In this document: positions 13,544-55,726 of the stretch, one piece after another
Numbering within the stretch: the stretch's first letter is position 1
Layout of the letters: every line of letters begins with the position of its first letter
DNA from: Streptomyces ficellus
Lineage (GTDB): Bacteria > Actinomycetota > Actinomycetes > Streptomycetales > Streptomycetaceae
Direction: 5' to 3'
Assembly: GCF_009739905.1 (NCBI RefSeq)
Contig: NZ_CP034279.1
Coordinates: forward strand, 682,001 to 746,000
DNA length: 64,000 nt
Notes under the pieces: generated by a model
Told to the model about the DNA's origin: nothing
Seen by the model: only the letters and a program-made list of their open reading frames with translations
The model's database searches: none
Made by a program: the position numbers and the translations under genes

Positions 13544-13710
13544 GCTCAGCGCACCCTCCCCCGCGGTTTCAGCGCCACCGGCGGGAGTGCGGGGGCCGGG
13601 AGGCGGCCGCCGTCGTAGCCGTGCACTTCGCCGAAGCGGGTGCCGGTCGTCCAGTCGTCGCGGGCGCGGGCGATCTCGTCGTGGGAGCGGCCCACGAAGT
13701 TCCACCACAT
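13544..13710. repeat. left 167-bp direct repeat (attL-like), pirin 3' end copy
   Basis: These 167 bp match 55560-55726 in the same orientation with three differences: CC versus TT near 13575, and G versus A near 13622. Identity ends abruptly on both sides. In both places the repeat covers the stop codon and last 54 codons of pirin. With an integrase fragment just inside, it looks like one junction of an integrated element. Confidence 0.9.
13546..13710 (-). pseudogene. orphan C-terminal fragment of pirin
   Basis: This encodes the last 54 residues and stop of pirin (starts MWWNFVGRSHDE, ends KPRGRVR) without the cupin core or any start region. It differs from the intact copy at 55562-56527 by His for Tyr and Ala for Thr. 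The differences suggest that the two 3' ends come from different strains, which fits an element that brought its own pirin end. It is probably not expressed. Confidence 0.88.
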
Positions 13711-13805
13711 ACCGCGTCCTCCAGGCATCCATGCAGGTCAGACGCACCTCGAACCATCGGCGGTCAGCAAACCGTCAGCATCGGTCTCCGAGGAGTCTCC
13801 AGCAC

Positions 13806-13964
13806 ATGGCGAGCAAGACCCTGGCCCGCGGTATGGGCACGTTCTTCAAGGACTGCGAGCACCCGCAGTCGCGGTGGTCGAAGTGCCCCCACCTGTACAA
13901 GGTGCGGTACCGGGATGCGGCGGGCAAGCAGGTGGAGGAGTCGGGCTTCGCCGCCCAGGACGAC
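13806..13964 (+). pseudogene. truncated phage-type (tyrosine recombinase) integrase, N-terminus only
   Basis: An ATG at 13806 after GAGGAG opens a frame whose first 53 residues (MASKTLARGMG, then CPHLYKVRYRDAAGKQ) match the N-terminus common to actinobacterial phage-type integrases, which bind arm sites. Family-like sequence stops near 13962, where a junction or frameshift leads to unrelated sequence. The core-binding and catalytic domains are missing. It reads inward from the left repeat, the usual place for an integrase gene. Confidence 0.72.
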
Positions 13965-14331
13965 CATCAACAGCCGCGACTGGGACGAGGTACGCGCTGC
14001 CCGGGCAACGGCCGCGTGCCCTGACCCCGCGCCTCTCTGGGAAGTACTCCTCGAAGCCACGCAGAACGACCAGACGACCCTCCAGCGTGTGAGCCCGCTC
14101 ATCCGGGTTCTCATCACCTGCGCTCCCGCCTCCCTCCCGGACAAGCTGACCGACCGGCTGGCCCCAGCACTTCGCGATGCCACACCCGACAGCGCCACAG
14201 CGCTCGGCCGTGCCGTGGGGTGCGCACCAGACCTGGCCGGCAGGCTGCGTCGCACTCTGTACGGTCAAAGCAAGACAGCCGCCGAGAAGGAGCGCACCGC
14301 CGCGTTCAAGAACGCTGCGGGAGTTCGGTGA
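13963..14331 (+). pseudogene. unrecognised C-terminal gene fragment
   Basis: After the integrase remnant another frame carries about 120 residues of protein-like sequence (contains SRDWDEVRAARA and PLWEVLLEATQND) ending at a TGA at 14331, with no start or ribosome binding site of its own. I do not recognise the family. It may be the 3' end of a gene fused to the integrase remnant by deletion, or a translated-looking accident. Confidence 0.4.
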
Positions 14332-14407
14332 CACGCGCGGCACGGCAGTGCGGCACAGAGGTTCGCGTTGGAGCCGAAAGCCGCAGCTGTCCGCGGACCA
14401 TGCCGCT

Positions 14408-17098
14408 TCACGTCCCCGACCGCCGCCGGACGTGTCGGCGCAGTTCGTCCGTACCCCACACGAGAACGGGGAACGTCAAGATGATCAGCACCACGTCGAG
14501 GGGCAGGGCCTCGGTGCCGAAGAGGCCCTGGACGGGCGGGAAGTAGATCAGGATGGCGGTGAAGACGACCTCGAAGGCGATGCCGGCCAGCAACAGCGGG
14601 TTGGTCAGGAGGCCGATCTCGCGGAGAGAGGCATGGTCGGTCCGGGCGGCGAAGGCAGTACCGATCTGGCACGTCACGATGCCGGCGAACGTGGCGGTGG
14701 TGGCCGTGACATAGGCGTCGTGCAAAGCGCTGCCCGGTCCGGTGGGGTCTCCCGGCTGCCAGCCGGCCCGCCACAAGACGTAGAAGAAGGCGGACATGGC
14801 CAGGGCGGCGGAGACCACGCCGAGGTAGCCCCAGCTACGGATCAGCATGTCGCGGGAGATCACGCCTTGGGAGCGCTTCCTCGGCGGGCGTGTCATGGCC
14901 CCGGGCTCGGCGCGTTCCCGGCCCAGGGCCAGGGCCGGGAGGGTCTCGGTCCCCAGGTCGATGGCGAGGATCTGGAGAACGGTCAGCGGAAGCGGAATGG
15001 CGCCGCCGGAGAGGGCGAAGACCGCGAAGGGCACTACCTCGGGGGTCAGGTGGGCGAAGATGTAGACGATGAACTTTCGGACGTTGTCGTAGACCCGGCG
15101 GCCCGCTTCGATCGCGGTGACGATCGTGGCGAAGTTGTCATCGGTGAGCACCATGGTGGCGGCCTCACGGGCGACGTCGGTTCCGGATCGGCCCATGGCT
15201 ACGCCGATGTGGGCGCGATGCAGTGCGGGAGCGTCGTTGACGCCGTCCCCGGTCATCGCGACGACCTGTCCGTGGTGGCGCAAGGCATCCGCGACCTTGA
15301 GCTTGGTTTCGGGGGACGAACGGGCGAAGACAATCTCCGTGTCACTGTTGGATGCGAGCAGTTCGTCGAGTTCCGGGTCGCTGACCGTCTCCGCCTCCGG
15401 GACCACGCGTAGCGCGGGTTCGCCGATGCCGACTTCCCGCGCGACGGCGGCGGCGGTGGCTCCGTTGTCGCCGGTCACGATGTGTACCCGGACGCCTGCT
15501 TCGTGGCATCGCCGTACCGCAGCGGCCACTTCGGGTCGTGGCGAATCGTAGAGGCCGACCAAGCCCATGAGACGGAGGCCGGCTTCGGCGTCCTCACGGC
15601 GGCCCGGAAGCGCGTCCGGCGCGAGCTCGCGCGTCGCGACGGCCAGGACGCGCATGCCGTGTCGTGCCATGTCGTCGGCCGCGGCCCGAGCTTCCCGAAC
15701 GGTCAGGTCGGCCGGCATGCCCGGGTCGGTGACCGTACGGGCCAGGATCGCTTCCGGTGCTCCCTTGGTGATGAGTAGCAGGTGGTCGCCCTCACTGTCG
15801 GGCGGGTGAACGACGGACATCATCCGGAGGCGGGGATCGAACCGGTACACGGTTCGCCGCTGTGCGTGTCTTGCGTCAAGGTCAGGGCAGACATCGAGCC
15901 CGGCCGCACCGGCAACCAACGCGATCTCCGTCGGATCACCGCGCAGTCGTCCTTCGGCATCGCGGGTCACCGTCGTACAGTCCGCCGCTGCGCGGGCCAG
16001 TTCCTTGACCCACGGACCTCCCTCACTTCCGTGTCCGGGGGTCCACAGGCTCTGGAGCCGCATCTTGTTCTGTGTCAGCGTTCCGGTCTTGTCGGTGCAG
16101 ATGACGTTGGTGGAGCCGAGTGTTTCCACCGCGCTGAGCCTCTTGACCACCGCGCCTCGGCGCGCCAGCGATCTGACCCCCACGGCGAGAGCGAGGGTGA
16201 TGATGGGCAGCAGACCTTCGGGGACGTTGGCGACAAGGAGTCCGATGGCGAACATCAGGGCGTCGGTGAGCGGCAGCCCCACCGCCACACCGGTTACCAG
16301 GAACACCGCCCCCATGGCGACTGCTGCCGCGGCGATGAGCCAGGCAACTCTTTTGACCTGCTGCTCCAGTGGGCTCTGCTCCCGGCGCGTGCGCTGGCTG
16401 AGCGCTGCGATGCGACCAAGCTCCGTACAGTTCCCCGTGGCGTAGACGACGGCTTGCGCTTGGCCACCCGTGCAGGTCGTCCCGCTGAACACCAGATCGG
16501 GTTCCTGGAGCAGCGGTAGTCCCTGCACCGCGGGGCCGGTCACGCGCTCGGCCGGTGCGGACTCCCCCGTCAGCATGGAGAGGTCGGTCTCGATCGCACC
16601 CTGAGTCAGCCGGGCATCGGCAGGGACCTTGTTGCCTTCCTCGAGGAGCAGCAGGTCTCCCGGCACGAGTGTGCGTGCTTCGACGGTCTGCTGATGGCCG
16701 TTGCGGATGACCTCCGCGTGCTCGGGCACGTACCGAGCGAGAGTCTCCACGGCGCGCTCGGCTTGCCGCTCCTGCAGCAGCGCGAAGGCCGCGTTCACCA
16801 GGATCACCACGATGATGGCCCACCCGAGGACCTCGATGCCGGCTACGAAGGCGAGGGCTGCGGCGGCCCAGAGCAGGAGGGCGAGCGGGTGCGCCAGTTG
16901 CTGAACCAGCTCCCGGCTTATGGAAGTCCGCTCCTTCACCTGGACCTCGTTGGGCCCGTGCACGGTCAGTCGTCGGTCCGCCTCTCGACCTGACAAGCCT
17001 TCGGCTCCGGTGCCGAGTTCACGGCGGAGCAGGGACAGCGGTTCGCGCGGGTCCGGGCTGATCGTCGCCGGCGCTCCGGGAGCGGACAGGTGCGTCAT
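14408..17098 (-). CDS. P2-type cation-transporting ATPase (PEGL type)
   Basis: An 896-residue ATPase. It has an N-terminal cation-ATPase domain, actuator loop TGES (177-180), membrane-4 motif ANVPEGLL (291-297), phosphorylation site DKTGTLT with Asp336, and hinge motif GDGVND. The C-terminal membrane helices are present, so it looks complete. The sequence around PEGL and [11 protein letters not shown] is closest in style to Na+/K+- and Ca2+-type P2 ATPases, but the ion cannot be fixed from sequence alone. It starts 27 bp after a universal stress protein gene and is probably cotranscribed with it. The pairing recalls CtpF in the mycobacterial DosR regulon. Confidence 0.88.
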
Positions 17099-17125
17099 GG
17101 GACAGCCTCCGCACGTGTCAGGACA

Positions 17126-18004
17126 TCAGTTCCACTGCGGTACGAGTGCCACCGGGCAGGCGGCATAGTGCAGCAGCGCGTGGTTCACCCGGCCGAGGTG
17201 CAGACCGCTGCGGTTGAGCCTGCGCTGGGCTCCGACGACCAGCAGGTCGGTTGCTTCCGAGTGCTTGAGGAGGACGTCTCGGGCCGACCCCTCCTCCACG
17301 ATGCGGTGGACGTCGACCGACGGGAATTCGCCGGCGGACTGCTTCAGTGCCTCATCCAGCAGGACCCTCGTACGGGGCGCTTGCTGGTCCTCGTGGCGCG
17401 GGAGGTCGAGGAGCTTGCTGATGGACGTCCGTGGGGGACGGTGCCAAGCCATCACCGCATCGAGGGCGCAGCCGCGGGCCGCCGCGACTTCGAAGGCGAA
17501 GCGCACCGCTGCCGAGCTGCTTTCGGCATCCGCGACACCGAGCAGAATCTGTTCGTACCGGTCCGCGGAAGGCAGGTCGCCGTCCCGGACGACCACCACG
17601 GGGCACTGTGCACGGGCAGCGACGACCAGGCTGACGGAACCCAGCAGAAGATCCTTCAGCTCACCACGGCCTCGTGCCCCGGTGACCAGTGCCGAAGCGT
17701 TGCGTCCGGCGTTCAACAGGGCGGTGACGGCGTCGCCGCACACGAGTTCGGCGGTCACCTTCAGATCCGGCCTGTGCGTCCGAGCCCGCTCCCGAGCAGC
17801 GTCGATCACGTGCTGCGCGATGTCCTGCCCACAGGGAGTCTCCGCACCGATCTCCAGGCCGCACGCGGGTTCCCTGTCGTCCGTCATCGTCGCATGCACG
17901 ATCTTCAGGGGCAGGGCCAACCGGGCTGCTTCATCCACCGCCCAGTCCAGCGCGCGAAGGCTGGAGGCAGATCCGTCCACTCCAACAACGAGGGGCAACC
18001 ACAT
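17126..18004 (-). CDS. tandem universal stress protein
   Basis: A 292-residue protein with two Usp domains. The first has the ATP loop G-2x-G-9x-G-S (GARGRGELKDLLLGS). The second has a degenerate loop (GAQRRLNRSGL). Both end in the usual beta strand (CPVVVV; CPVALVP). Such proteins bind ATP and protect cells in stasis or low oxygen. The ATG at 18004 follows GGTGGAG; upstream in-frame sequence is not Usp-like. It is the first gene of an operon with the P-type ATPase. Operator-like palindromes lie at 18102 and 18186. Confidence 0.88.
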   Translation of the reverse strand: MWLPLVVGVDGSASSLRALDWAVDEAARLALPLKIVHATMTDDREPACGLEIGAETPCGQDIAQHVIDAARERARTHRPDLKVTAELVCGDAVTALLNAGRNASALVTGARGRGELKDLLLGSVSLVVAARAQCPVVVVRDGDLPSADRYEQILLGVADAESSSAAVRFAFEVAAARGCALDAVMAWHRPPRTSISKLLDLPRHEDQQAPRTRVLLDEALKQSAGEFPSVDVHRIVEEGSARDVLLKHSEATDLLVVGAQRRLNRSGLHLGRVNHALLHYAACPVALVPQWN

Positions 18005-18101
18005 GGTCTCCACCACCTTCTTGTTGGTACCGGACGTGTCACTCAAGGCCACCGTCACACTGCGCGTACGTGGGTACGAGAGGCGGATGGGGCAGTGACA
18101 A

Positions 18102-18115
18102 GGGCCATCCGGCCC
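18102..18115. promoter_or_regulatory. DosR-like box 1, GGGCC-ATCC-GGCCC
   Basis: A perfect 5-4-5 palindrome, 98 bp upstream of the leftward universal stress protein ATG at 18004, inside the divergent region shared with the flavodoxin gene. It is inferred to bind the response regulator encoded at 50512-51240. Confidence 0.65.
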
Positions 18116-18185
18116 CGCTGATCCTGGGGACGGGAACGCGAATCTCCCGAGCCAGGAGCGCCTGCTTGCCGCATGGCATGGAGGA

Positions 18186-18199
18186 GGGCCATTCGGCCC
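18186..18199. promoter_or_regulatory. DosR-like box 2, GGGCC-ATTC-GGCCC
   Basis: A second perfect copy, 84 bp (about eight helical turns) from box 1 and 129 bp upstream of the rightward flavodoxin start. Each divergent gene may use one box. Confidence 0.62.
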
Positions 18200-18327
18200 C
18201 GAGCTCTGCCTCACAGGCCCTTCAACGTGCCCGCACCTCAGCGCACCCTCGGAAGTGGAACCACTCGCACACCGGACGGAACGCGTTCAGCACACCGCCC
18301 GGCGCTCGGAGAAGGACGGTGAAGACA

Positions 18328-18834
18328 GTGCCCAGGAAGGTACTGGTCACCTATGGGACCAAGAACGGTTCGACCGCCGAGATCGCCGACTTCATCGCCT
18401 CCGTCCTGCGGGACGAGGGGCTGGAGGCGGAGACCCGGCCACCGTCGGAGGTGACCGACGTCGCGTCCTACGACGCGGTCGTGATCGGCGGAGCGCTCTA
18501 CATGGGCCGCTGGCACCGGGACGCCAGGCGCTTCGCCCGGCAGCACCGCCAGGCGCTGCGGGAACGGCCGGTCTGGCTCTTCAGCAGCGGCCCGCTGGAC
18601 CCTTCGGCCTCGGAGCGGGAGATCCCCCCCGTCCCGGGCGCCCGGCGGGCACAGCGTCGCATCGACGCGCGTGATCACGTCACCTTCGGCGGTCGGCTCC
18701 AGGCCGGAGCAAAGGGCCGCATGGCCAAGGCGATCCTCGACGAGGACCGTGGCGGTGACTTTCGTGACTTGCCCCGCGTCGCGGAGTGGGCCGCCGGCGT
18801 GGCCACCGGGATCAGGGCCCCGGAAGAGGGATGA
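18328..18834 (+). CDS. flavodoxin-domain protein (HemG-like)
   Basis: A 168-residue protein starting with a strand and the FMN phosphate loop VTYGTKNGSTAEIA (about 7-20). This is followed by the flavodoxin pattern SYDAVVIGGALYMGRWH (about 52-68) and WLFSSGPLD. It resembles the menaquinone-dependent protoporphyrinogen oxidase/flavodoxin group. It is a likely FMN electron carrier or oxidoreductase in the cytoplasm. The GTG at 18328 gives a normal N-terminus, with GAAGGA 11 nt upstream; the GTG at 18319 is too close to that site. A decayed Rv1733c-family gene follows at once. Confidence 0.8.
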   Translation: MPRKVLVTYGTKNGSTAEIADFIASVLRDEGLEAETRPPSEVTDVASYDAVVIGGALYMGRWHRDARRFARQHRQALRERPVWLFSSGPLDPSASEREIPPVPGARRAQRRIDARDHVTFGGRLQAGAKGRMAKAILDEDRGGDFRDLPRVAEWAAGVATGIRAPEEG

Positions 18835-18837
18835 ACC

Positions 18838-19379
18838 CCATGCCTGCGCCGGTCTGGACACGCGATGGCTCGAGCATCCCCCGCGCCGGCGGGTGGACGC
18901 TCTCGAAGCGCGGCCGCGCACCGGCGGTCGGCGCGCGTGCCGGCTGGTACGCGTACGACCACGACCGGACCACCGCAGCCGTGCAGGAGGCATCACGACG
19001 TCCTGTGCGGGCGGAAGTGCTGGAGAACGCGCCCGCGTCCTCCCCTCTCCGCACCGAGGAGACGGGGCGCCCGGCACGGGTGCCCGTACGGGTCCGCTGG
19101 ACCATCACCGACGGGCACTACGCCACGGGGGCCGTCTCGGTGCCGCCGGGAACCGGCCGGGGGAGCACACGGAGATCTGGCTGGACCGGAAGGGACAGGT
19201 CGTGACCGCGCCGCTGAACGACCGCGACGTCTGGGCGGGCGCGCTGGCCGTCGGCCTGTCGGGCGGCGCCCCTGACCGCGGGCGCCGGTGCGGTCGCCGC
19301 GGCGGCCGTGCGTGGAGCCTGCGATCGGCACCGCACGGCCAACTGGGCGAGCGATGGGGACCAGGTGGGACCGGAATGA
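18838..19379 (+). pseudogene. decayed Rv1733c-family membrane protein
   Basis: Three frames together spell parts of a family known from the DosR regulon (Rv1733c). Frame one gives GWYAYDHDRTTAAVQEA, VRAEVLENAP and VRVRWTITDG. Frame two, from about 19150, gives RPGEHTEIWLDRKGQVV. Frame three, from about 19260, gives LTAGAGAVAAAAVRGACDRH and ends at a TGA at 19377-19379. At least two frameshifts separate them. The usual N-terminal membrane helix is missing. The second helix (Ala/Val-rich, near the end) is readable only after correcting the frame. Sequencing error could explain one shift but hardly the missing N-terminus. Confidence 0.68.
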
Positions 19380-19465
19380 AGGCGCCGTCTTGTCTGAACC
19401 GCGCCTCGAGACAACCGAACGCCGCGCCGGTGCGGACCGGCGGGCCCGAGCCGAGGAGGCTTGCG

Positions 19466-20113
19466 ATGACCGCGTCACCCCACACCGTGGCCGACGTCAT
19501 GACCCACACCGCCGTGGCGGTGGGCGGCCGGGCGTCGTACAAGGAGATCGTCGAGCTGATGAACCAGTGGAAGGTCAGCGCCCTGCCCGTGCTGGCGGGC
19601 GAAGGCCGTGTCATCGGAGTGGTGTCGGAAGCCGACCTGCTGCCCAAGGAGGAGTACCGCGTCGACGACGGGATCCTGCGCGACCGGCCCATCGCCGACA
19701 CTGCCAAGGCCGGCGCGGTGTACGCGGAGGACCTCATGTCGAGCCCCGCCGTCACCGTCCACGCGGACGCCACCATCGCCGAAGCCGCCCGGATCATGGC
19801 GAGGCGGCACGTCAAGCGCCTGCCCGTGGTGGACAGCCTCGGCCTTCTGGAGGGTGTCGTCAGCAGGGGCGACCTGCTGAAGGTCTTCCTGCGGTCCGAC
19901 GAGGACATGGCGTCCGAGATCCGCAGCACCGTCCTCCCGGACCTGCCGGCCGCGGCTCGGGTGGACGTGGCGGTCGAGGACGGTGTGGTGACGTTGCGCG
20001 GCGAGCTGCGGGACCGGGCGCTGCTGCCGCTGCTGGCCAGGGCGATCAGGGCCGTGGAAGGAGTCGTGGACATCCGGGTCGACCTGCGCAGTCCAGAGGT
20101 GGTCGCGCGCTGA
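19466..20113 (+). CDS. CBS-pair protein with C-terminal BON domain (Hrp1-like)
   Basis: A 215-residue protein with two CBS motifs (about 8-65, VSALPVLAGEGRVIGVVSEADLL region; and 90-148, VKRLPVVDSLGLLEGVVSRGDLL region) and a BON-like domain (about 150-210, VEDGVVTLRGEL). CBS pairs usually bind adenine nucleotides and signal energy state; BON domains bind membranes or proteins. A mycobacterial CBS protein, Hrp1, is a strong DosR target. The ATG at 19466 follows GAGGAGG. It is probably read from the flavodoxin promoter through the decayed gene. A second paralogue is at 34935-35609. Confidence 0.88.
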   Translation: MTASPHTVADVMTHTAVAVGGRASYKEIVELMNQWKVSALPVLAGEGRVIGVVSEADLLPKEEYRVDDGILRDRPIADTAKAGAVYAEDLMSSPAVTVHADATIAEAARIMARRHVKRLPVVDSLGLLEGVVSRGDLLKVFLRSDEDMASEIRSTVLPDLPAAARVDVAVEDGVVTLRGELRDRALLPLLARAIRAVEGVVDIRVDLRSPEVVAR

Positions 20114-20176: not shown

Positions 20177-20182
20177 ATGCCG

Positions 20183-30197: not shown

Positions 30198-32909
30198 TCA
30201 CCTGCCTGTCTGGGCCCCGGTGGCGTGTAGGGCCGCACGTCCGGCTTCGAGCCGGGCGATGGGCACCCGGAAGGGGGAGCACGACACGTAGTCCAGGCCC
30301 GCCTCGTGGAAGAAGTGGACGGAGTCCGGGTCACCGCCGTGTTCCCCGCATACGCCGATCTTCAGCCCGGGCCGGGTCGCCCTGCCTTCGGCGACGGCGA
30401 TCTCGACCAGACGTCCCACACCTTCGCGGTCGATGGTCTCGAACGGGGAGGTCTGGAAGATGCCCTGGTCGAGGTAGGCGGAGAAGAACGCGGCCTCGAC
30501 GTCGTCGCGGGAGAAGCCCCACGTCGTCTGGGTGAGGTCGTTCGTGCCGAACGAGAAGAACTCCGCGTCCTCGGCGATCCGGCCCGCCGTGAGAGCGGCG
30601 CGCGGCAGTTCGATCATGGTCCCGACCGGGCAGTCCAGAGGGATGCCGCTGCCGCCGGAGACCCGCTCCAGTACGCGGGCGACTTCCGCCCGTACCAGCC
30701 GGAGCTCCTCCACCGCGTCGACCAGCGGCACCATGATCTCGGCGCGCGGATCGCCGCCGGCCCGTTTGCGGGCCACGACGGCCTCGGCGACGGCACGCAC
30801 CTGCATGGCCACGAGCCCGGGAACGACCAGCCCCAGCCGTACGCCACGCAGACCCAGCGTGGGGTTCGTCTCATGCATCCGGGTGACCGCCGCCAGCAGT
30901 TCGGTCTCGTGGGCGTCCGGTGGCCGCCCCTGGGCGTCGTGCCGGGCGACGCGTACGGACAGCTCGGTCAGGTCGGGCAGGAACTCGTGCAGGGGTGGAT
31001 CGAGCAGCCGGATGGTCACGGGCAGCCCGTCCATCGCTTCGAGGATGCCGATGAAATCCTCGCGTTGCAGGGGCAGGAGGGCGTTGAGCGCCGCTTCCCT
31101 CCCGGCGTCGTCATGCGCCAGGATCATCGCCTCGACCAGGGGACGGCGGTCGCCGAGGAACATGTGCTCGGTGCGGCACAGACCGATCCCCTGCGCCCCG
31201 AACCGCCGGGCGCGGGCGGCGTCCTCCGGTGTGTCGGCGTTGGCCCGCACCTCCAGGCGCCGCACCTCGTCCGCCTGCCCCATCAGCCGGTGCACATCGC
31301 GGACGACCTGCGTGGCCGGCTCCCTGGGCGGCTGTCCGCCGTCTTCGAAGTACCGCATCACCGGAGAGTCCACGAGGGGCGCGGCGCCCAGGAACACCAG
31401 GCCCTCGGACCCGTCCACGGAGATGACGGTGCCTTCCCGCACGGTGCCCGAGGAGCCCGAGGAGGTCGAGAAGAGCCGCCCGTCCGGGTCGACGGTGAGG
31501 TCCTCGGCGCCGCACACGCAGACCTTGCCCATGCCCCGGGCGACGACGGCCGCGTGGCTCGTCTTCCCGCCGCGGCTGGTGAGCACGGCCTCGGCGGCGA
31601 TCATGCCGGGCAGGTCGTCCGGGGTCGTCTCCTGGCGTACCAGGACGACCTTCTCCCCGCCGTCGGACCGGCGGACCGCTTCGGCCGAGTCGAACACCAC
31701 GGCCCCGACGGCCGCGCCCGGCGAGGCGGGGATGCCCCGGGCCAGCACCTCGCGCGTACCGGAGGTGTCGAAGCGGGGGAACATCAGCCGGGCCAGCCCT
31801 GGACCGTCGACCCGGGCCAGCGCCTCCTTCTCGGAGATGAGCCCCTCGTCGGCCAACTGGCCCGCGATGGCGAACGCGGCCTGCGAGGTGCGTTTGCCGA
31901 CCCGGGTCTGCAGCATCCACAGCGTGCCGCGCTCGATGGTGAACTCGATGTCGCACAGGTCGCTGTAGTGCTCTTCCAGCCGCCGCATGCAGTCGCGCAG
32001 CCGGGCGAAGGAGGCCGGGTCGAGGCTTTCCAATCGCTGGAGGGGCACGGTGTTGCGGATGCCGGCGACGACGTCCTCGCCCTGGGCGTTTCGCAGGTAG
32101 TCGCCGTAGACGCCGGGGCGGCCGGTCGCCGGATCGCGGGTGAAGGCGACACCGCTGCCCGAGTCGGGGCCCAGGTTGCCGAACACCATCGTCTGGACGG
32201 TGACGGCGGTGCCCAGGTCGTCGGGGATGTGCTCGCGGCGCCGGTAGATCCGGGCCCGCTCGCCGTTCCACGAGGTGAACACGGCGAGGACGGCACGCCG
32301 TAGCTGCTCGGCGGGGTCCTGTGGGAACTCCTCGCCGGTGTCATCCAGGATCACGTCCTGGTACGTCTCGACCAGCCGGATCAGGTCGCTGGTGTCGAGC
32401 CGGGTGTCGTCGGCGACATGGTGCTGCTTCTTGATTCCGGCCAGAGCCTTCTCGAACCGTGCGCTGTCGACGCCCATGACGGTACTGCCGAACATCTGCA
32501 CGAGGCGGCGGTAGGAGTCCCAGGCGAACCGTTCCCGTTCGGGGGTCTTGCCCAGGCCGAGGACGGACAGGTCGTTCAGGCCGATGTCGAGGATGGTGTC
32601 CATCATGCCCGGCATGGAGAACCGGGCTCCGGAGCGGACGGAGAGCAGCAGCGGGTCGTCCACCTGGCCGAGCCGCCGCCCCGCGGCGCGTTCCAGGGCG
32701 GCGAGGTGTTCGCCGACCTGGCGCCCGAGCTCGGGTGGAGGCTCCCCGGTGGCCAGGAAGACCCGGCACGCTTCCGTGGTGATCGTGAAGCCGGGCGGTA
32801 CGGGCAGATTGATGCGGGCCATCTCCGCGAGATTGGCGCCCTTGCCACCCAGTAGGTCGGCCATGTGCCGATCGCCCTCGGCGAAGTCGTACACGTACTT
32901 GAACTCCAT
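30198..32909 (-). CDS. ppdK: pyruvate, phosphate dikinase
   Basis: A 903-residue enzyme that interconverts pyruvate + ATP + Pi and phosphoenolpyruvate + AMP + PPi. The N-terminal ATP-grasp part has LLGGKGANLAEM and GVAFTRDPATG. The swivelling domain has GGKTSHAAVVARGMGK with the phospho-His. The C-terminal PEP barrel has GLCRTEHMF and IGVCGEHGGDP. The ATG at 32909 matches the usual start (MEFKYVYDF); a TTG 7 codons upstream is less likely. It follows a usp gene by 67 bp. In low oxygen it could use PPi to make ATP or PEP. A PPDK is also known in the OsdR region of S. coelicolor. Confidence 0.92.
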   Translation of the reverse strand: MEFKYVYDFAEGDRHMADLLGGKGANLAEMARINLPVPPGFTITTEACRVFLATGEPPPELGRQVGEHLAALERAAGRRLGQVDDPLLLSVRSGARFSMPGMMDTILDIGLNDLSVLGLGKTPERERFAWDSYRRLVQMFGSTVMGVDSARFEKALAGIKKQHHVADDTRLDTSDLIRLVETYQDVILDDTGEEFPQDPAEQLRRAVLAVFTSWNGERARIYRRREHIPDDLGTAVTVQTMVFGNLGPDSGSGVAFTRDPATGRPGVYGDYLRNAQGEDVVAGIRNTVPLQRLESLDPASFARLRDCMRRLEEHYSDLCDIEFTIERGTLWMLQTRVGKRTSQAAFAIAGQLADEGLISEKEALARVDGPGLARLMFPRFDTSGTREVLARGIPASPGAAVGAVVFDSAEAVRRSDGGEKVVLVRQETTPDDLPGMIAAEAVLTSRGGKTSHAAVVARGMGKVCVCGAEDLTVDPDGRLFSTSSGSSGTVREGTVISVDGSEGLVFLGAAPLVDSPVMRYFEDGGQPPREPATQVVRDVHRLMGQADEVRRLEVRANADTPEDAARARRFGAQGIGLCRTEHMFLGDRRPLVEAMILAHDDAGREAALNALLPLQREDFIGILEAMDGLPVTIRLLDPPLHEFLPDLTELSVRVARHDAQGRPPDAHETELLAAVTRMHETNPTLGLRGVRLGLVVPGLVAMQVRAVAEAVVARKRAGGDPRAEIMVPLVDAVEELRLVRAEVARVLERVSGGSGIPLDCPVGTMIELPRAALTAGRIAEDAEFFSFGTNDLTQTTWGFSRDDVEAAFFSAYLDQGIFQTSPFETIDREGVGRLVEIAVAEGRATRPGLKIGVCGEHGGDPDSVHFFHEAGLDYVSCSPFRVPIARLEAGRAALHATGAQTGR

Positions 32910-33855: not shown

Positions 33856-33920
33856 GATGGGCTCCTCTCGAGAGGCCGTGCTTCCACTTCCAGATTCGTC
33901 CACTGCGGCGCTGCGTGCGA

Positions 33921-33934
33921 GGGCCGGAGGGCCC
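33921..33934. promoter_or_regulatory. DosR-like box, GGGCC-GGAG-GGCCC
   Basis: A perfect palindrome 66 bp upstream of the usp ATG at 33855, with a second site 20 bp further away. Confidence 0.65.
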
Positions 33935-33940
33935 GGCGCA

Positions 33941-33954
33941 GGACCCTTGGACCC
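33941..33954. promoter_or_regulatory. secondary box, GGACC-CTTG-GACCC
   Basis: One mismatch in each half. It starts 20 bp (two helical turns) after the perfect box, the kind of spacing that allows cooperative binding of DevR-type dimers. Confidence 0.5.
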
Positions 33955-34363
33955 TCCCGGCTGACGTGGGCCAGGTCCGTTCGCCGGGTTCCCGCGCCCT
34001 CACGGCCCCAGACCGGAGAGCGGCGGTGGCGCAGGGTGGCATTGAGGTCCTCGGAGCCATGGGAGCCATCATGATCACCGCCCTTGTGCCCATCCTTCGA
34101 TCGCCCACGGTCCGCTCCGCCTCATCCGGGCCGTTCCCGCCCGAGCCGATCAGTCGCCCCCTTCGGCCCGGGCGGCTCATGGGCGCTGACCGCCGCTGGA
34201 GTCTCCGTCACGTGCTCGGCATGAGGCCGAGCGGGCCTCCGGCGTCATCCGGCGCGGGCACCTGGGCCGGAAGGGTGCGGAGCTGTTCCGTCCGCTCGGC
34301 TGCCATTACGAGGGCTACCGGGACCGGGCGGACACAGCCGTGTGGGCAGAGGGCATCGGCCGG

Positions 34364-34377
34364 GAGCCGGAAGGCCG
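34364..34377. promoter_or_regulatory. weak DosR-like box, GAGCC-GGAA-GGCCG
   Basis: One mismatch in each half, 92 bp upstream of the single-domain usp ATG at 34470. Confidence 0.35.
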
Positions 34378-34469
34378 AACCGACCGGACGGAGCAGTCCG
34401 GCTTGGCACAGACCATGCGACACGTACAGCGTGGAGGAGTATCAACCCCGGTGAGAGGGCGAAACGGTC

Positions 34470-34919
34470 ATGGCAAGCAGTGAATCGGTCCCCCGGGTCG
34501 TCGTCGGGGTCGACGGTTCCGCGTCGTCGCAAGCAGCGCTGCGATGGGCGGCCCGGCATGCTCAGCTCATCGGCGGCATGGTGGAGGCGGTCTGTGCCTG
34601 GGACACGCCTTCCGAGGCCGGGTGGGTGGGTCCGGCCACGGAACCCGGCTTCGACCTGGAGCAGGCGCGCCGCGGTTTCGCCGAGGAGATCCGGGCGGTC
34701 TTCGGGGACCACAAGCCGGTAGAAGTACGGGAAGAGCTGGTCCGGGGCGATCCGTCGGAGGTTCTGGTACGAGCGTCCGAAGGGGCCGAGCTGCTCGTGG
34801 TGGGCAGCCGAGGACGCGGAGGCTTCGCCCGCGCCATGCTGGGCTCCGTCAGCCAGCGCTGCGCTCAGCACGCCGCCTGCCCGGTGGTCGTGGTGCGTCC
34901 CACCGGCAAGGAGAAGTGA
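34470..34919 (+). CDS. single-domain universal stress protein
   Basis: A 149-residue Usp with one domain, the only short form here. The ATP loop is canonical (GSRGRGGFARAMLGS) and the final strand is CPVVVV. It is close to classic ATP-binding UspA-like proteins and probably forms dimers. The ATG at 34470 is preceded by GAGAGGGCGAAA. It converges on the second CBS-BON gene with a 15-bp gap. Confidence 0.88.
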   Translation: MASSESVPRVVVGVDGSASSQAALRWAARHAQLIGGMVEAVCAWDTPSEAGWVGPATEPGFDLEQARRGFAEEIRAVFGDHKPVEVREELVRGDPSEVLVRASEGAELLVVGSRGRGGFARAMLGSVSQRCAQHAACPVVVVRPTGKEK

Positions 34920-48987: not shown

Positions 48988-49424
48988 TCTCCACGACGGC
49001 GACGACCGGGCGGCTCGCCCGCGCGGTACCGCGTCTTCGCTGACCCGTATGGCAAGGGCCGGGCGGATTGCGGCCGCGCGGCGTGCCGTTCCGATGGTGG
49101 CCAGCAGGAAGGCAGCGAAGGTCGCGGCCGCCAGGACGCCAATGCTGGTCGACTCGAGGGGGAATCCTCCGTCGAGCCCCTCGAACGCGGCGCTGTTGCG
49201 GTACATCAGCCATGTGATCAGCACCCCGAGCAGCGATCCGAGCACGATGCCCTCTACGGCGATGACGGCGCTCTCCCACAGGAAGGAGCGCTTTACCATC
49301 CAGGCCCTGAAGCCGAGGGCGCGCAGGATGCCGATCGTGTGCTGCCGTTCGCGTACGGCGCGACCATGACCATTCCGAGGCCGGTGACGCCCACCAGGAG
49401 CCCCAGAGCGAGGAAGCCCCGCAT
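48988..49424 (-). pseudogene. C-terminal remnant of an FtsX-like ABC permease
   Basis: On the minus strand a frame from 49424 reads RGFLALGLLVGVTGLGMVMV, then a one-base deletion near 49371 shifts it; the next frame gives ERQHTIGILRALGF, VKRSFLWESAVIAVEG and ATIGTARRAAAIRPALAIR. This is the last two or three membrane helices of an FtsX/MacB-type permease. The ATP-binding partner and the front of the permease are missing. It is a relic between the mutase gene and the next usp. Confidence 0.72.
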
Positions 49425-49463
49425 CGGCGGGAGTGGTGATGGGCCCGGGCGGACTGGTCTTGA

Positions 49464-49477
49464 GGGCCGAACGGCCC
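49464..49477. promoter_or_regulatory. DosR-like box, GGGCC-GAAC-GGCCC
   Basis: The longest symmetric copy: arms extend to 7 bp each (GAGGGCC and GGCCCTC). It is 88 bp upstream of the usp ATG at 49566. Confidence 0.68.
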
Positions 49478-49565
49478 TCTGCACGGAGCTCGCACTCGTC
49501 GATGCTGAGTGGCAGAGGGCGGGCCGCGATGGCCGTGCCCGTCGAACCGTACGGAGGCCATCACC

Positions 49566-50438
49566 ATGACCCGCGCCATTGCTGTAGGGGTGGATGGATC
49601 ACCGGAAAGCCTGGCGGCGGCCGATTGGGCGGCAGGCGAAGCGTCGCTCCGAGGGGTACCGCTGCGTATCGTGCACGCCTGGCTCTGGCAGCCGTTGGAC
49701 GTGCCCGTCGTCCAGGACCGGGAAACCCAAGCCAAGTCCGCCAACGCCGTCCTGCGTGAGGCCCGGACGCACGTGGCCGCCCGGCACCCCGGCCTTGCCG
49801 TGACTGCGGAAGTGGTGGCGGACACGGCGGTTTCCGCTCTCCTCGGCGAGGCGGAGCGGTCCGAGATGCTGGTGCTCGGTTCGCGCGGACACGGCGCCCT
49901 CCTCGGCTTTCTGCTCGGCTCGTACGGCCAGCAGGTGATCGCCGCCGCCACCCGGCCCGTGGTGTCGGTCCGCGCGCGGGACAAGGACGCGCGGGAGCCG
50001 GAGGGCGGCGAGGTCGTCGTGGGCCAGCAGGGCACGCCGGCGGACAGCGACGCGGTGCTGGCATTCGCCTTCGAGGCAGCAGCCGCACGAGGCGCGGTGG
50101 TGCGCGCGGTGCGGGCCTGGAGCCTGCCTCCTGTCTATGCCTACAGTCCCGGTTCGATGTATCTGGCGGACCAGGCCGGAGGGCTGGAACCGTTCGAGAA
50201 GAAGGCATTGGGAGAGGCGCTCGCTCCTTGGCGGGAGCGGTTCCCGGATGTGCCGGTGATCGAGCACGTCGAGATCGGCAGTGCCGGACAGGTGCTGCTC
50301 TCGGCCGCCTCACGTGCACGGTTGCTCGTAGTCGGTCGTCGGGTACACCGCTCCCCCGTCGGGACCCGCATCGGGTCGGTCGCCCACGCCGCCCTGCACC
50401 ATGCCACCTGCCCCGTCGCGGTCGTCCCGCACCCCTGA
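49566..50438 (+). CDS. tandem universal stress protein
   Basis: A 290-residue double Usp. The first loop is canonical (GSRGHGALLGFLLGS); the second is degenerate (GRRVHRSPVGTRIGS). The ATG at 49566 follows GGAGG with 8-nt spacing. It is a single-gene unit next to the regulators and converges on the response regulator gene over a strong hairpin. Confidence 0.88.
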   Translation: MTRAIAVGVDGSPESLAAADWAAGEASLRGVPLRIVHAWLWQPLDVPVVQDRETQAKSANAVLREARTHVAARHPGLAVTAEVVADTAVSALLGEAERSEMLVLGSRGHGALLGFLLGSYGQQVIAAATRPVVSVRARDKDAREPEGGEVVVGQQGTPADSDAVLAFAFEAAAARGAVVRAVRAWSLPPVYAYSPGSMYLADQAGGLEPFEKKALGEALAPWRERFPDVPVIEHVEIGSAGQVLLSAASRARLLVVGRRVHRSPVGTRIGSVAHAALHHATCPVAVVPHP

Positions 50439-50453
50439 GAGCCGCCGCGACCG

Positions 50454-50482
50454 CCGGCCCCGCCCGAGGAGGGCGAGGCCGG
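50454..50482. terminator. bidirectional hairpin between usp and response regulator
   Basis: Twelve-base arms with one internal mismatch and a 5-nt loop (50466-50470), 16 bp after the usp stop and 30 bp from the convergent regulator stop. Confidence 0.7.
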
Positions 50483-50511
50483 GAGCTGTCGCGGTCGGCC
50501 GGACCTTCGGC

Positions 50512-51240
50512 TCAGCTCCGCCGTCGGCCGTCCCGGGTCGCGGTCGAGCCGCTGTGGCCTCCTTGGTCAGCCAGTGCTTGGGTGGCGATGACCGCGGCCT
50601 GCACCCGGCGTTCCACGCCCAGCTTGGCCAGGAGCCGGGAGATGTTGTTCTTGACCGTCTTTTCGGCGAGGTAGAGCTCCTTGCCGATCTCGCGGTTGGT
50701 GAGCCCCTCGCCGACCAGGGCGAGAATCTCCCGCTCCCGATCCGTCAGCCCGGGCAAACCCTGCGGATGCTCTTCCTTGGGAGAGCCGCCCCTCAGCCGG
50801 GCCATCACCCGAGCCGTGGCACCGGGGTCGAGCATCGATTGGCCGGACGCGACCGTGCGCACGGCGTTGACCAGGTCGGTGCCGGTGATCTGTTTGAGGA
50901 CATACCCGGATGCGCCCGCCATGATCGCGTCGAGCAGCGCTTCTTCGTCGTCGAAGGAGGTCAGCATCAGGCAGGCGAGGTCCGGCATCCGAGAGCGCAG
51001 CTCCCGGCAGACGCTCACACCGTCCCCGTCCGGCAGACGCACGTCCAGAACGGCCACCTGCGGGCGCAGGGCCGGAATGCGAACCAGTGCCTGTTCCGCC
51101 GTGCCCGCTTCGCCGACCACGGTCAGGTCCGGTTCGGCGTCCAGGAGGTCGTGCACCCCACGGCGCACCACCTCGTGGTCGTCGAGAAGGAACACCGTGA
51201 CCGGTGCGTCCTCGGTGGAGCTGCTGCTGCTGTCCGTCAT
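50512..51240 (-). CDS. DevR/OsdR-like response regulator (NarL family)
   Basis: A 242-residue regulator. The receiver has Asp20/21, phospho-acceptor Asp66 ([13 protein letters not shown]), Thr94 and Lys116. The LuxR-type helix-turn-helix (165-220) has [16 protein letters not shown] and the recognition helix [17 protein letters not shown], almost the same as in mycobacterial DevR/DosR. This makes a DosR-like operator likely. The ATG at 51240 follows GGAG with 8-nt spacing. A perfect box 79 bp upstream suggests autoregulation. The partner kinase is probably at 52047-53765. Confidence 0.92.
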
Positions 51241-51318
51241 CACATGCTCCATATTCGATGAGTCCGCCCGCGCGGGCGGACCTATCAGCATGGTGCGCGC
51301 ATGCGGGGCGAACGGACA

Positions 51319-51332
51319 GGGCCGGATGGCCC
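51319..51332. promoter_or_regulatory. DosR-like box, GGGCC-GGAT-GGCCC
   Basis: A perfect palindrome with arms that extend to 7 bp (CAGGGCC, GGCCCTG), 79 bp upstream of the response regulator ATG. It may be used for self-control. Confidence 0.66.
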
Positions 51333-51433
51333 TGATGCGCGGCTACCGGTGCCGCGCGCCTCTCCGTCTTCACCACACCGCTCGTCCATGCCTGTGTCCC
51401 CGTGCCATCCGGAGAAGACCGGCCCTCCTGCAT

Positions 51434-51447
51434 TGGCCCATTGGGCC
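51434..51447. promoter_or_regulatory. variant box, TGGCC-CATT-GGGCC
   Basis: An imperfect copy 87 bp upstream of the flavoprotein ATG at 51534, sharing GGCCC-nn-TGGGCCCTGC with the site at 25173. Confidence 0.45.
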
Positions 51448-51533
51448 CTGCCGGGGGTGCGACGACCGCGAGACGCTGACTGTCAGGTACCCCGTTTCCC
51501 CGGAGCGGTAAGCCGGAGCAGAAGGTGGGCACG

Positions 51534-52046
51534 ATGAACGACGCAGCCACGCATCGAACGGTGGGCGGCCACGATGGGGCGGTGGCACCCCGGCACCTGG
51601 CACCGCTCGACCGCGACGAAGCCCTGAGGTTGCTGGGCACCGTTTCGCTGGGGCGCATCGTCTTCAGCCAGCAGGCCCTGCCGGCTGTCCGGCCGGTCAA
51701 CCACCTCATGGACGGTGAGGACATCGTCGTCCGGTTGCACGACGGCGCGTCGCTCGCCTCCATCGTGGCTCCGACCGACGCCACGGGGGTCGTGGTGGCC
51801 TACGAGGCGGACGTCATCGACCCGGTGACGCATCTCGGCTGGAGCGTCGTCGTCACCGGATACGCCCGCCTGGTCACCGACGAACGTGACCTCGCCCGCT
51901 ATGCGGCGGCCCTCCGCCCCTGGGCGCAGCACGACGCGATGAATGCGGCGCTGCGCATCCGGCCGGACCTGGTCACCGGCTCACGGCTCATCGCGGAGCC
52001 GGCGCACCCTGCACCGCGTACGGAACGTACCGTCGACGACTCGTGA
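51534..52046 (+). CDS. pyridoxamine-phosphate-oxidase-like split-barrel flavoprotein
   Basis: A 170-residue split barrel (ALRLLGTVSLGRIVF, PAVRPVNHLMDG, WSVVVTGYARLV). It resembles the C-terminal half of the HTH fusion at 29412-30101 but lacks the HTH. It probably binds FMN or F420 and acts in redox chemistry. The ATG at 51534 follows GAAGGTGGG. It lies between the response regulator gene and its likely kinase gene, divergent from the first and ending one base before the stop of the second. Confidence 0.83.
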   Translation: MNDAATHRTVGGHDGAVAPRHLAPLDRDEALRLLGTVSLGRIVFSQQALPAVRPVNHLMDGEDIVVRLHDGASLASIVAPTDATGVVVAYEADVIDPVTHLGWSVVVTGYARLVTDERDLARYAAALRPWAQHDAMNAALRIRPDLVTGSRLIAEPAHPAPRTERTVDDS

Positions 52047-53765
52047 TCATCCCGGCTGGGCGACCGGCGCCCGCCAGAGGAGTCTGGTGCCGCCTTCGGC
52101 CGGCGCCTGGACATCGAAGGCCCCACCCACACTCCTGGCCCGCTCCTCCAGGTTACTCAGCCCGCTGCGCCTGCCGTCGGCCGGAATGCCCCTGCCGTTG
52201 TCCGTGACGATGAGGACGACCTCGTCCGCCGTGGCCTGCAGGGACACCTCGACGCGTGTCGCGTGCGCGTGGCGGGCCACGTTGCTCAGCGCTTCGCCCA
52301 GGGCTGCCATGACGTGGTCGGCCACCTGCGGCGGGACATCGGTGTCGAGCAGGCCCTCCATGCTCAGGCGTGGCGGGAAGCCGAGCGTGGTGCCGGCCTC
52401 GCCCACGGCACGCGCCACGCGAGCGCGAAGGCTCGGACCCGTGTCCTCGTCACGGGCCCGCAATCCGAAGATCGTGGAACGAATGATCTTGATCGTTTCG
52501 TCGAGATCTCCGACGGCACGCGAGACGCGTTCGGCGGCGCCCTCGTGCTGGACGAGCCGTGCGGCGCTCTGCAGGGTCATCCCGGTCGCGAACAGCCGTT
52601 GGATGGCGAGGTCGTGCAGGTCCCGCGCGATGCGGTCCCGGTCCTCCAGCAGCGCAAGCTGTTCGGCGTCGTTGCGCCGCTCGGCCAGCTCCAGGGCGAG
52701 CGCGGCCTGACCCGCGAACGCCCGCAGCGGTTCGAGCTCCCCCTCGGTGAACACCGGCTCACCCACGGAACGTGCCAGCAGCAGAACGCCCCGGATGTCC
52801 CTCGTCTCGGTGCCCAGGGGAACGGCCACGGCCGGGCCGAGACCGTCGAAGCGACGGGGCGCGGCCGTGTACCGGTCGTCCTCAGCCAGCCCTGTCGTGG
52901 TCACTGGCGTGCCCGCCCGGTAGGCGGCCCCGGACAGGGTGCCCCGGACGGGCACCACCAGGCCCCGCCGGGGCTCGTCGTCGGCACCGATCGCGAGTTC
53001 CACGACGAGGTCGTCCGTACCGGCGACGGGCACGGACACATCCGCGAGCTGTGCACCGGTGATGTCCTGGGCGCGGCGGGCAATCAATTCCAGCACGTCC
53101 AGCCGGGGGCTCCCGGAAAGGAGGCTGTTGGTGATCTCCGCGTTCGCCTGCAGCCAGCGCTGCTGTCGCTGAGAGGCTTCGTAGAGTCGGGCATTGTCGA
53201 TCGCCACACCCGCGGCCACCGACAGCGTGGCGATCACCGACTCGTCCTCGGCGTCGAAGTCCGCACCACCGTGCTTGTCCGTGAGGTAGAGGTTGCCGAA
53301 GACCTCGTCGCGTACGCGGATGGGGACGCCGAGGAACGTACGCATCGGCGGGTGGTGCGCGGGGAAGCCGTACGACGCCTCGTGGGTGCCGAGATCGGTG
53401 AGCCGCAGCGGCTCCGGGTTGCGAATGAGCTCGCCCAGGATGCCGTGCCCGGCCGGCAGCGGCCCGATCCTGGCGATCTCCGCCTCCGTCAGCCCGACGG
53501 TGAGGAACTGCGACAGTGTCCGGCCGTCGGGGCCGATCACACCCAGCGCTCCGTACTGGGCGTCGACGAGCAGCGCCGCCGCTTCCACGATCCGCCGCAG
53601 CACCTGGGGAAGGTCCAACTCCCGACCGACCGAGACGACGGCCTCCAGCAGGCTGTGCACCCGGTCCCTGGTGCCGAGAGCCGCGTTGATGCGCGCCTGA
53701 AGCTCCTCCAGCAATTCGTCGAGCCGCATCTGGGGCATCCGCGACAGCGGCTCCTCCACGCTCAC
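52047..53765 (-). CDS. DevS/DosT-like GAF sensor histidine kinase
   Basis: A 572-residue kinase with two GAF domains (about 50-195 and 215-365), a HisKA_3 dimerisation helix with phospho-His384 (IARDLHDLAIQRLF), and a HATPase domain (GEALSNVARHA 490-500; TDNGRGIP). The first GAF has FPAHHPPMRTFLGVP; His138 aligns with the haem-ligand His149 of DosS, and Tyr160 (NLYLTDK) with its distal Tyr171. It may therefore sense O2, NO or CO through haem. There is no membrane segment. The GTG at 53765 follows GGAGGAGG. It probably phosphorylates the regulator at 50512-51240. Confidence 0.9.
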   Translation of the reverse strand: MSVEEPLSRMPQMRLDELLEELQARINAALGTRDRVHSLLEAVVSVGRELDLPQVLRRIVEAAALLVDAQYGALGVIGPDGRTLSQFLTVGLTEAEIARIGPLPAGHGILGELIRNPEPLRLTDLGTHEASYGFPAHHPPMRTFLGVPIRVRDEVFGNLYLTDKHGGADFDAEDESVIATLSVAAGVAIDNARLYEASQRQQRWLQANAEITNSLLSGSPRLDVLELIARRAQDITGAQLADVSVPVAGTDDLVVELAIGADDEPRRGLVVPVRGTLSGAAYRAGTPVTTTGLAEDDRYTAAPRRFDGLGPAVAVPLGTETRDIRGVLLLARSVGEPVFTEGELEPLRAFAGQAALALELAERRNDAEQLALLEDRDRIARDLHDLAIQRLFATGMTLQSAARLVQHEGAAERVSRAVGDLDETIKIIRSTIFGLRARDEDTGPSLRARVARAVGEAGTTLGFPPRLSMEGLLDTDVPPQVADHVMAALGEALSNVARHAHATRVEVSLQATADEVVLIVTDNGRGIPADGRRSGLSNLEERARSVGGAFDVQAPAEGGTRLLWRAPVAQPG

Positions 53766-54051
53766 TGCGCCTCCTCCGCCACCGTCCGCTCTGCATTCCA
53801 GCGTATCGGCCCACAGCGGCGGTCCGGGGGTTGCGCACGCGGCAGAACATGGCCGCCCGTGGACGGCCGTACGCATGGCGCCCTCAGAGCAGAGGCTGAT
53901 CGGCACCGGACGACGACCATGCGGTCCCTGCCCGGGAGACGCTGAAGAAGCCAGCCACTTCACGGGACGGGCCTCCCTGACCACCTGGCTTGGGAACCTC
54001 AGACCTCGCCGGTATCGGTGCCGGGAATGCTGCACCACAGCTGCGAGAGTT

Positions 54052-55059
54052 TTACGGGCGAGTGGCCGGTGGCACGAGGGTGTTGTCGCTGGTGTGCCCT
54101 GCGAGATAGTCCTCGATGTTACGCACGGTGGTGTCGATGATCTGTCCGACGGCGTCCTGCGTGAAGTAAGCCTGGTGGGAGGTGATCAGCACGTTCCGGA
54201 ACGTCATCAGGCGGGCAAGAACGTCATCGGTCATCACCTCCAGGGACTTGTCGAGGAAGAAGACACCGGCTTCCTCCTCGTAGACGTCCAGCCCCACACC
54301 GTCGAGGCGGCCGGCACGCAGCGTCTCCACCAGGGCCGGTGCGTCGATAAGGCCGCCGCGGCTGGTGTTGATCAGGATGGCGTCGCGTTTCATGAGCCCC
54401 AGTGCGGCGGCGTCCACCAGGTGATGGGTATCCGGCACCAGCGGCACGTGCAGGCTGATCAGGTCGGCCTCCGCGAACAGCCGGTCTCGCTCGACGTACT
54501 CCATGCCCAGCTTTCGGCATTCGGCATTCTCGGTGAGGTCCCAGCCGAGCAGGCGCATGCCGAAGCCGTGGGCGATCCGGGTGAAGGCGGTGCCGATCTT
54601 GCCCGTACCCAGGACGCCGACGGTACGGCCGTGCAAGTCACGTCCCATCAGACCGGTGAGCCGGAAATCGAATTCCCGGGTCCGGCCCGTCGCCCGGACC
54701 AAGCGGCGGTTCACCGCGAGGGCCAAGGCCCAGGCGAACTCGGCCACGGCGTACGGGGAGTAGTACGACACCCGGGCCACACCGATGCCGAGCCTGCGGG
54801 CCTCTTCGACGTCGATGTTGTTGTAGCCGGTGGAGCGCTGAACGATCATCCGTGTGCCGCCCTGGGCGAGGATCCGCAGGACACCCGCGTCCAGCGCGTC
54901 GTTCACGCTACTGCTGACGATCTCGTAACCGGTGGCCGTCGGCGCGGTGTCGTCGTTGAGGAACAGCTCGAGGCAGCGCAGACGGCTCCGTCCCTCAAGC
55001 GCCGTCTCCAACAGCGGACGCTCGTCGGGCAGCACCCCGTACGCGACGATCTCAGCCAT
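54052..55059 (-). CDS. D-lactate dehydrogenase-like 2-hydroxyacid dehydrogenase
   Basis: A 335-residue D-isomer 2-hydroxyacid dehydrogenase. The NAD loop is VLGTGKIGTAF (about 149-159). The catalytic residues are the Arg in NTSRGG, the Glu in DVYEEEAGVFF and the His in SHQAYFT. The stretch from DVYEEE to SHQAYF follows fermentative LdhA closely. It would reduce pyruvate to D-lactate and recycle NAD when respiration stops. The ATG at 55059 follows GAGAGGAG. I see no DosR-like box upstream. It is the last gene before the right repeat. Confidence 0.88.
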   Translation of the reverse strand: MAEIVAYGVLPDERPLLETALEGRSRLRCLELFLNDDTAPTATGYEIVSSSVNDALDAGVLRILAQGGTRMIVQRSTGYNNIDVEEARRLGIGVARVSYYSPYAVAEFAWALALAVNRRLVRATGRTREFDFRLTGLMGRDLHGRTVGVLGTGKIGTAFTRIAHGFGMRLLGWDLTENAECRKLGMEYVERDRLFAEADLISLHVPLVPDTHHLVDAAALGLMKRDAILINTSRGGLIDAPALVETLRAGRLDGVGLDVYEEEAGVFFLDKSLEVMTDDVLARLMTFRNVLITSHQAYFTQDAVGQIIDTTVRNIEDYLAGHTSDNTLVPPATRP

Positions 55060-55559
55060 GGCCCTGCTCCTCTCCCGTGACCGCTGCGCAAGACGTCCAG
55101 CGCAGCAACCAGGCGTTTGGAACGATCAGCGAACAGCTCCGGGGCAGGAGCACACGACCGACCGAGCTCACCAGCATGCCGCCAGACGCTCCGATCCCCG
55201 CAGCCACTCACCTGGCGCCTTGGGCGTGCAGCCCTGATGGCCCAACACCGGGCCGGCGTGCGTACCACCAGCGGTCCGAGAAGGACTCACGAGGAACAGT
55301 CTTGTGGGATAACCACAAGACCGTACTTTGTCGTGGATGACGTCTCCCACCCCCGGTGCCAGCAGACGGCCGGCTACCTGACGACTCATCAGCAGTGTCA
55401 GCATTGGGTCTACTAAGCCGACCACAGACGACCACATCTGAGAACCCCGGTCGCGCGCACCAGAGGCTGCCGGAGCGGCGAGGAACCAAATCCGCTCTCG
55501 AGTAAGGGGCCAAGTTGCCACGTTCGGGTACGCACTCGACCCCGCCCCACATCATTGCA
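55060..55559. other. 500-bp non-coding right end of the island
   Basis: No plausible gene. GC is visibly lower than elsewhere (55290-55420). It holds a 9-bp inverted repeat at 55299-55321 and a GTCAGCAT sequence at 55396 similar to one inside the left repeat at 13774. These could be integrase or excisionase arm sites. Confidence 0.5.
55299..55321. repeat. 9-bp inverted repeat near the right island end
   Basis: GTCTTGTGG, a 5-nt spacer GATAA, then CCACAAGAC. The symmetry is perfect. It has no GC-rich clamp or T tract, so it looks more like a protein-binding site than a terminator. Confidence 0.5.
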
Positions 55560-55726
55560 GCTCAGCGCACCCTCCCCCGCGGTTTCAGCGTTACCGGCGG
55601 GAGTGCGGGGGCCGGGAGGCGGCCGCCGTCGTAGCCGTACACTTCGCCGAAGCGGGTGCCGGTCGTCCAGTCGTCGCGGGCGCGGGCGATCTCGTCGTGG
55701 GAGCGGCCCACGAAGTTCCACCACAT
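55560..55726. repeat. right 167-bp direct repeat (attR-like)
   Basis: The partner of 13544-13710, in the same orientation and 42,016 bp away. Here the repeat is the 3' end of an intact pirin gene, so insertion did not break the gene. Confidence 0.9.

Follow-up and report, generated by a model that had tools for sequence, protein, structure and literature searches.

Genes of the pirin family are established phage integration targets, as the attB site of phage phiC31 lies in a pirin-like gene (PMC7890619, PMC6599336). The closest mechanistic precedent for the locus described here is PAISt of Streptomyces turgidiscabies (PMC4057263), an island with a large cargo that was integrated at the 3′ end of a protein-coding gene, bacA, by the tyrosine recombinase IntSt. 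Duplications of 138-141 bp of the bacA 3′ end form direct repeats in PAISt, and several att copies split the island into modules. Decayed AICEs of Streptomyces include integrase-less, att-flanked islands that have been proposed to be mobilisable in cis (PMC9513070). We analysed a 64-kb stretch of DNA, hereafter the window, that corresponds to C1:682001-746000 of a single-contig 7.08-Mb genome, and compared it with related Streptomyces genomes. A 42-kb segment of the window is very probably an att-bounded integrative island, formed by a tyrosine-integrase mechanism with a pirin gene as its target. A literature search found no tyrosine-integrase element at pirin; the landing site is apparently unreported, and the mechanism is of a known kind. 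The original prediction had called pirin a non-standard target, which holds for this particular site but not for the family, already known through the phiC31 attB.

Two direct repeats, at 13541-13710 and 55557-55726, are identical at 166 of 170 positions and have the same orientation. This agrees with the predicted 167-bp pirin-end repeats, 98% identical and 42,016 bp apart: the coding parts (13546-13710 and 55562-55726, both on the minus strand) each hold 54 pirin codons plus the stop and are spaced by 42,016 bp. All four mismatches lie in the stop-side half, and the 87 bp nearest the pirin body are identical. The left copy is a fragment adjoining nhaA, a Na+/H+ antiporter gene outside the left end (12174-13472, plus strand; Pfam PF06965), and the right copy is part of an intact pirin gene of 321 aa (55562-56527, minus strand), the presumed target. 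Judging by the repeat identity and the recurrence of the 54-codon unit, the left copy is probably attL, a truncated 3′ tail displaced from the host gene; the repeat identity and the tail divergence tests point to the right copy as attR, an element-borne tail with which the working pirin gene now ends. The right tail has Tyr and Thr for His and Ala in the left one, as claimed. Target direct repeats are thus found at both ends, with the pirin reading frame restored. Because 170 bp of near-complete identity are combined with a 54-codon tail that recurs in many genomes, a chance origin of the repeats is excluded.

The pirin homology of the left copy ends in the core GAAGTTCCACCACAT (13696-13710), as defined by the attL alignment of 21 tail copies. 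This core is present only there and at 55712-55726. The aligned left junctions have a common core, GTTCCACCACAT, or its variant CCAGTTCCAGAACAT, followed downstream by an arm that contains the repeat GGTCAGCAAACCGTCAGCAT. In the window, this left arm-type repeat has a single match (13762-13781, plus strand; 0 expected), and the right arm-type repeat, TCAGCAGTGTCAGCAT, lies at 55389-55404 (plus strand), one of exactly two window matches with 0 expected. The repeat class as a whole, TCAGCA-N-GTCAGCAT, is found exactly twice in the 64 kb (13764-13781 and 55389-55404), once inside each end, where none would be expected, so that arm-type sites flank the core. In other genomes, 23 of 32 tails have it on the side facing the integrase, and 37 of 115 pirin genes have it 114-182 bp past the stop, versus 34 of 2440 random chunks. 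Since the class occurs twice in the window and has the same placement in other genomes, both element arms appear to be preserved here. The right element end, from cargo to attR, spans 55208-55561: homology to the cargo in the nearest relative, genome G006, stops at 55207, and positions 55376-55465 resemble the flanks closest to pirin in other genomes. The palindrome CTTGTGG-N-CCACAAG near attR was rejected as a general feature, with an exact match in only one of 115 cases. Elsewhere, a tail on L169 (7807-7971) and five other displaced tails have a right-arm repeat beyond the tail, as the accretion of one element after another would lead one to expect.

The predicted integrase 5′ remnant just inside the left copy proved real. 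It is a 53-codon N-terminal stump of a tyrosine integrase (13806-13963, plus strand) beside attL. G006 has a longer remnant, to which the stump is 89% identical over 56 aa, and the stump can also be aligned with intact integrases of 384 aa. Intact relatives occur beside the same att site in other genomes; these 384-aa proteins have the R, K, YxxR, H and Y catalytic residues of tyrosine recombinases and match Pfam PF00589. Using the G006 integrase stump as the query, homologues were identified in 53 of 296 genomes. A pirin tail lies directly beside the integrase at 17 of the 23 loci with at least 54% identity, versus none of the seven more distant loci (Fisher p 8e-4). The G006 integrase itself (C12, near 408700-409130; L018/L039) is also broken, its codon 109 being fused, in opposite orientation, to a shortened pirin tail, and upstream of it is an excisionase-like helix-turn-helix gene. 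Two further genomes, G120 and G125 (L169, L158), each possess a pair of near-identical integrases of the family, facing one another at a distance of 4-6 kb; in G125, transposase-like genes lie in the gap.

Pirin tails that break off at the codon seen here are found in close relatives and widely in the genus. Tail-only pirin copies are present in 14 of 50 named genomes, including S. halstedii, S. exfoliatus, S. bikiniensis and S. antnestii; the other 36 have no clear tail copy. In the 15 genomes with pirin and a tail on one contig, all 16 tails lie on the strand and the 3′ side of pirin, 4.6-212 kb away. The exceptions to this placement are tails on other contigs or on the opposite arm. The truncated tails bound different gene sets across Streptomyces, so other cargo does occur at the same site, as the original prediction had asked to be checked. 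Its other check was for an empty site with nhaA adjoining pirin: this arrangement was found in none of 24 close genomes, where nhaA sits elsewhere. Both nhaA and the neighbouring symporter are accessory and located elsewhere, which makes them uninformative as empty-site markers. A compact pirin element of about 9.4 kb in S. lacrimifluminis has an intact 384-aa integrase. This element (L116:10964-20330) also encodes a protein weakly similar to a large terminase and a wHTH Hsp90-associated protein, and is perhaps a phage satellite or a defence island.

Sequence divergence within pirin is consistent with repeated replacement of its end. For the 54 codons that precede the core, identity at 4-fold sites is 0.76, versus 0.61 for the tail (33 disjoint close pairs, p 1.8e-6). 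The window pirin is 93% identical to that of G006 in the body and only 77% in the tail, and the corresponding 4-fold-site identities are 0.84 and 0.39. Pirin tails thus appear to evolve as if swapped, with replacement much more frequent there than in the gene body. The suggestion that the element had brought a replacement end from another strain needs a correction: the end did not come from a distant strain, as the two tails here are 98% identical whereas those in most other genomes differ by 11-30% (70-89% identity).

The att cores and arms, the integrase stump, the tail-integrase module, the cargo and its other location in G006 can be read directly from the sequence, and from them we infer an order of events. 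A circular element would have entered a subterminal pirin gene when a tyrosine integrase recombined its attP with the attB at codon 268. Because the final 54 pirin codons would also be present on the element, pirin would stay whole at the right end (attR), and the host's own tail would be displaced to the left end (attL). The integrase gene would have broken later, leaving 53 codons that abut a truncated cargo gene, with no homology at the junction. As its integrase is broken, the island is now probably immobile alone, and excision would need a related integrase in trans or a related element landing beside it. The predicted integrated element, bounded by pirin 3′ ends and with an integrase remnant inside the left copy, is strongly supported by the recurrent tails, the tail-integrase pairing and the arm repeats. 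Some points count against the island reading: no clean nhaA-pirin empty site was found, the tails are unusually alike and the cargo lacks excess divergence.

The cargo that the island now encloses looks like a self-contained regulon for oxygen stress and dormancy, complete with a regulatory pair of the DosR/DosT type. It starts with the 3′ part of a gene truncated by the integrase junction (13965-14387; 88.4% identical to G006 C8:736533-736950) and continues as a DosR/OsdR-type stress and dormancy cluster at 14408-55059. The cluster includes a DevR/OsdR-like response regulator (50512-51252, minus strand), which has M. tuberculosis DevR (3c3w, E 1.4e-78) as its best match among solved structures, and a DosT/DevS-like histidine kinase (52047-53765, minus strand), whose GAF domain best matches 2vzw and DevS structures (E 6.5e-49 and 7e-46). 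In addition to these regulators, the cargo contains two P-type ATPases, about nine universal stress proteins, CBS and flavodoxin proteins, a nicotinate phosphoribosyltransferase, a nitroreductase, a pyruvate phosphate dikinase (PPDK; 30198-32909, minus strand; TIGR01828, 1230 bits), an acetyltransferase-CoA ligase (GNAT-CoA ligase), GH65 and HAD proteins, an alcohol dehydrogenase, a metallo-beta-lactamase-fold protein, a pyridoxamine-oxidase-like protein and a 2-hydroxyacid dehydrogenase, several of these names coming from reading of the sequence alone. DevR-type boxes lie upstream of member genes: six of seven island matches are intergenic, where intergenic DNA makes up 12% of the island (p 2e-5), and the total number of boxes in the window is not above chance. 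The cargo belongs to the OsdRK type of cluster known from S. coelicolor (PMC5069765). No traB (FtsK-like) or replication-module gene was found among the annotated cargo proteins in the window. One universal stress protein gene (33915-34919) seems frameshifted, with two partial frames only. The window PPDK is full length, whereas G006 has only C-terminal fragments of it (L175, C8, about 5228-6021).

A largely syntenic cluster of 45.6 kb is located on another contig of G006 (C8:693261-738906). The flanks of that site lie 11 bp apart in the present genome, on the opposite arm (6,854,531/6,854,542), where the cluster is absent, and are contiguous in G001 and G007. Because its flanks adjoin in these three genomes, the G006 position itself appears to be derived. 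Synonymous identity to G006 at 4-fold sites is 0.73 overall for the cargo versus 0.75 for the backbone. As the cluster occupies a different locus in G006 and is no more diverged than the backbone, it appears to have moved within the lineage rather than to have been imported from far away.

How the cluster came to lie between the att sites, with the element or by joining it later, we infer from the same comparisons. Its entry as integrase cargo has a serious competitor, in which an older and smaller element left the att sites behind as fossils. On this view, ordinary recombination or a translocation within the chromosome arms brought in the dormancy cluster at a later time, and the cluster was never integrase cargo. 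We give this account somewhat less than an even chance. The junction fits it well, as integrase homology stops at 13963 and cluster homology begins at 13965, without shared homology and within a gene that is longer in G006. So do the G006 insertion between two genes that are neighbours elsewhere, by which the cluster relocates without pirin sites, and the cargo divergence that equals that of the backbone. Moreover, 667 kb of sampled interior of other pirin elements, not every one of which was fully covered, contained other genes and no dormancy cluster. Against later capture, a 107-kb pirin-to-tail interval of G226, in which the integrase is intact, encloses a cluster that has most kinds of gene found in the island, although the pirin of this genome is only 54% identical to the window pirin. 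In G242, a 42-kb interval of this kind encloses a dormancy cluster. S. antnestii and strain NRRL WC-3605 also have parts of the cluster directly 3′ of pirin. Dormancy clusters near pirin were found in two of 80 cases on the 3′ side versus none of 80 on the 5′ side, and 400 kb of control DNA, like the sampled element interiors, held none; these numbers do not establish an enrichment. The D-2-hydroxyacid dehydrogenase was discarded as a cluster marker, being unreliable and separate from the cluster in G242.

Recent transfer of the whole island from a distant strain in one step, as the original prediction implied, is improbable. The gene set is indeed unlike its surroundings in composition, with GC3 of about 0.81-0.93 in island genes versus 0.91-0.97 in flanking genes, and the histidine kinase, response regulator and HAD part of the cluster is more diverged from G006 (4-fold 0.52-0.67) than the remainder. 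Most cargo genes, however, are as close to G006 as the backbone is, and the near-identity of the two tails also opposes a distant source; the set is therefore compositionally distinct but not foreign to the lineage. A local segmental duplication of the pirin end without any integration, which the original prediction named as a way in which it could be wrong, would account for a direct repeat covering part of one gene, but is contradicted by the recurrence of the 54-codon unit, break point, integrase and arm repeats in many genomes and retains almost no probability. Equally little can be said for a serine-integrase event of the phiC31 type: despite the pirin-like attB of that phage, the phiC31-like site of this genome (C1:3534896) lies in another pirin paralogue (gene 3534197-3535072; 34% identical), and the integrase adjoining the tail is a tyrosine recombinase.

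Integration at pirin by a tyrosine integrase thus remains our preferred reading of the island. It describes a widely used landing site in the variable Streptomyces chromosome arms, for which the core, both arms and intact integrases have been identified. The site and its integrases are a candidate integration tool for these arms, and tail-only pirin copies may serve as a simple genomic marker of past element visits. A DosR-type regulon, usually regarded as a fixed stress programme, can apparently be enclosed in an integrative island and relocated. That the pirin-site integrase is a recurrent vehicle, moving whole oxygen-stress and dormancy regulons with their regulator between places and Streptomyces strains, is a tentative and rather doubtful extension; if true, it would explain the different places of the cluster in different species.

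Each of the known systems matches this locus in part. Like the S. coelicolor OsdRK and M. tuberculosis DosR/DevR regulons (PMC5069765), the cargo combines a DevR-like regulator, a DosT/DevS-like GAF kinase, many universal stress genes and DevR-type boxes; unlike them, it is enclosed by integrase att sites, and we noticed no nitrate reductase operon in it. Integration of phiC31 uses a serine integrase and a site inside a different paralogue, and disrupts its target, whereas the target here is restored. PAISt shares the recombinase type, the protein-gene 3′ end, the direct repeats, the division of the island by several att copies and the large cargo, but its target is bacA with the core TTCATGAA instead of pirin with GTTCCACCACAT; the present island has a stress and dormancy regulon as cargo and a broken integrase. 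With AICEs and decayed AICEs (PMC9513070) the locus has in common a site-specific integrase, direct repeats, accretion, decay and integrase-less att-flanked remnants. The reported AICEs reside mostly in tRNA genes of the central region and the pirin sites in the arms, and by analogy the present state of the island fits the proposal that such decayed elements may be mobilised in cis.
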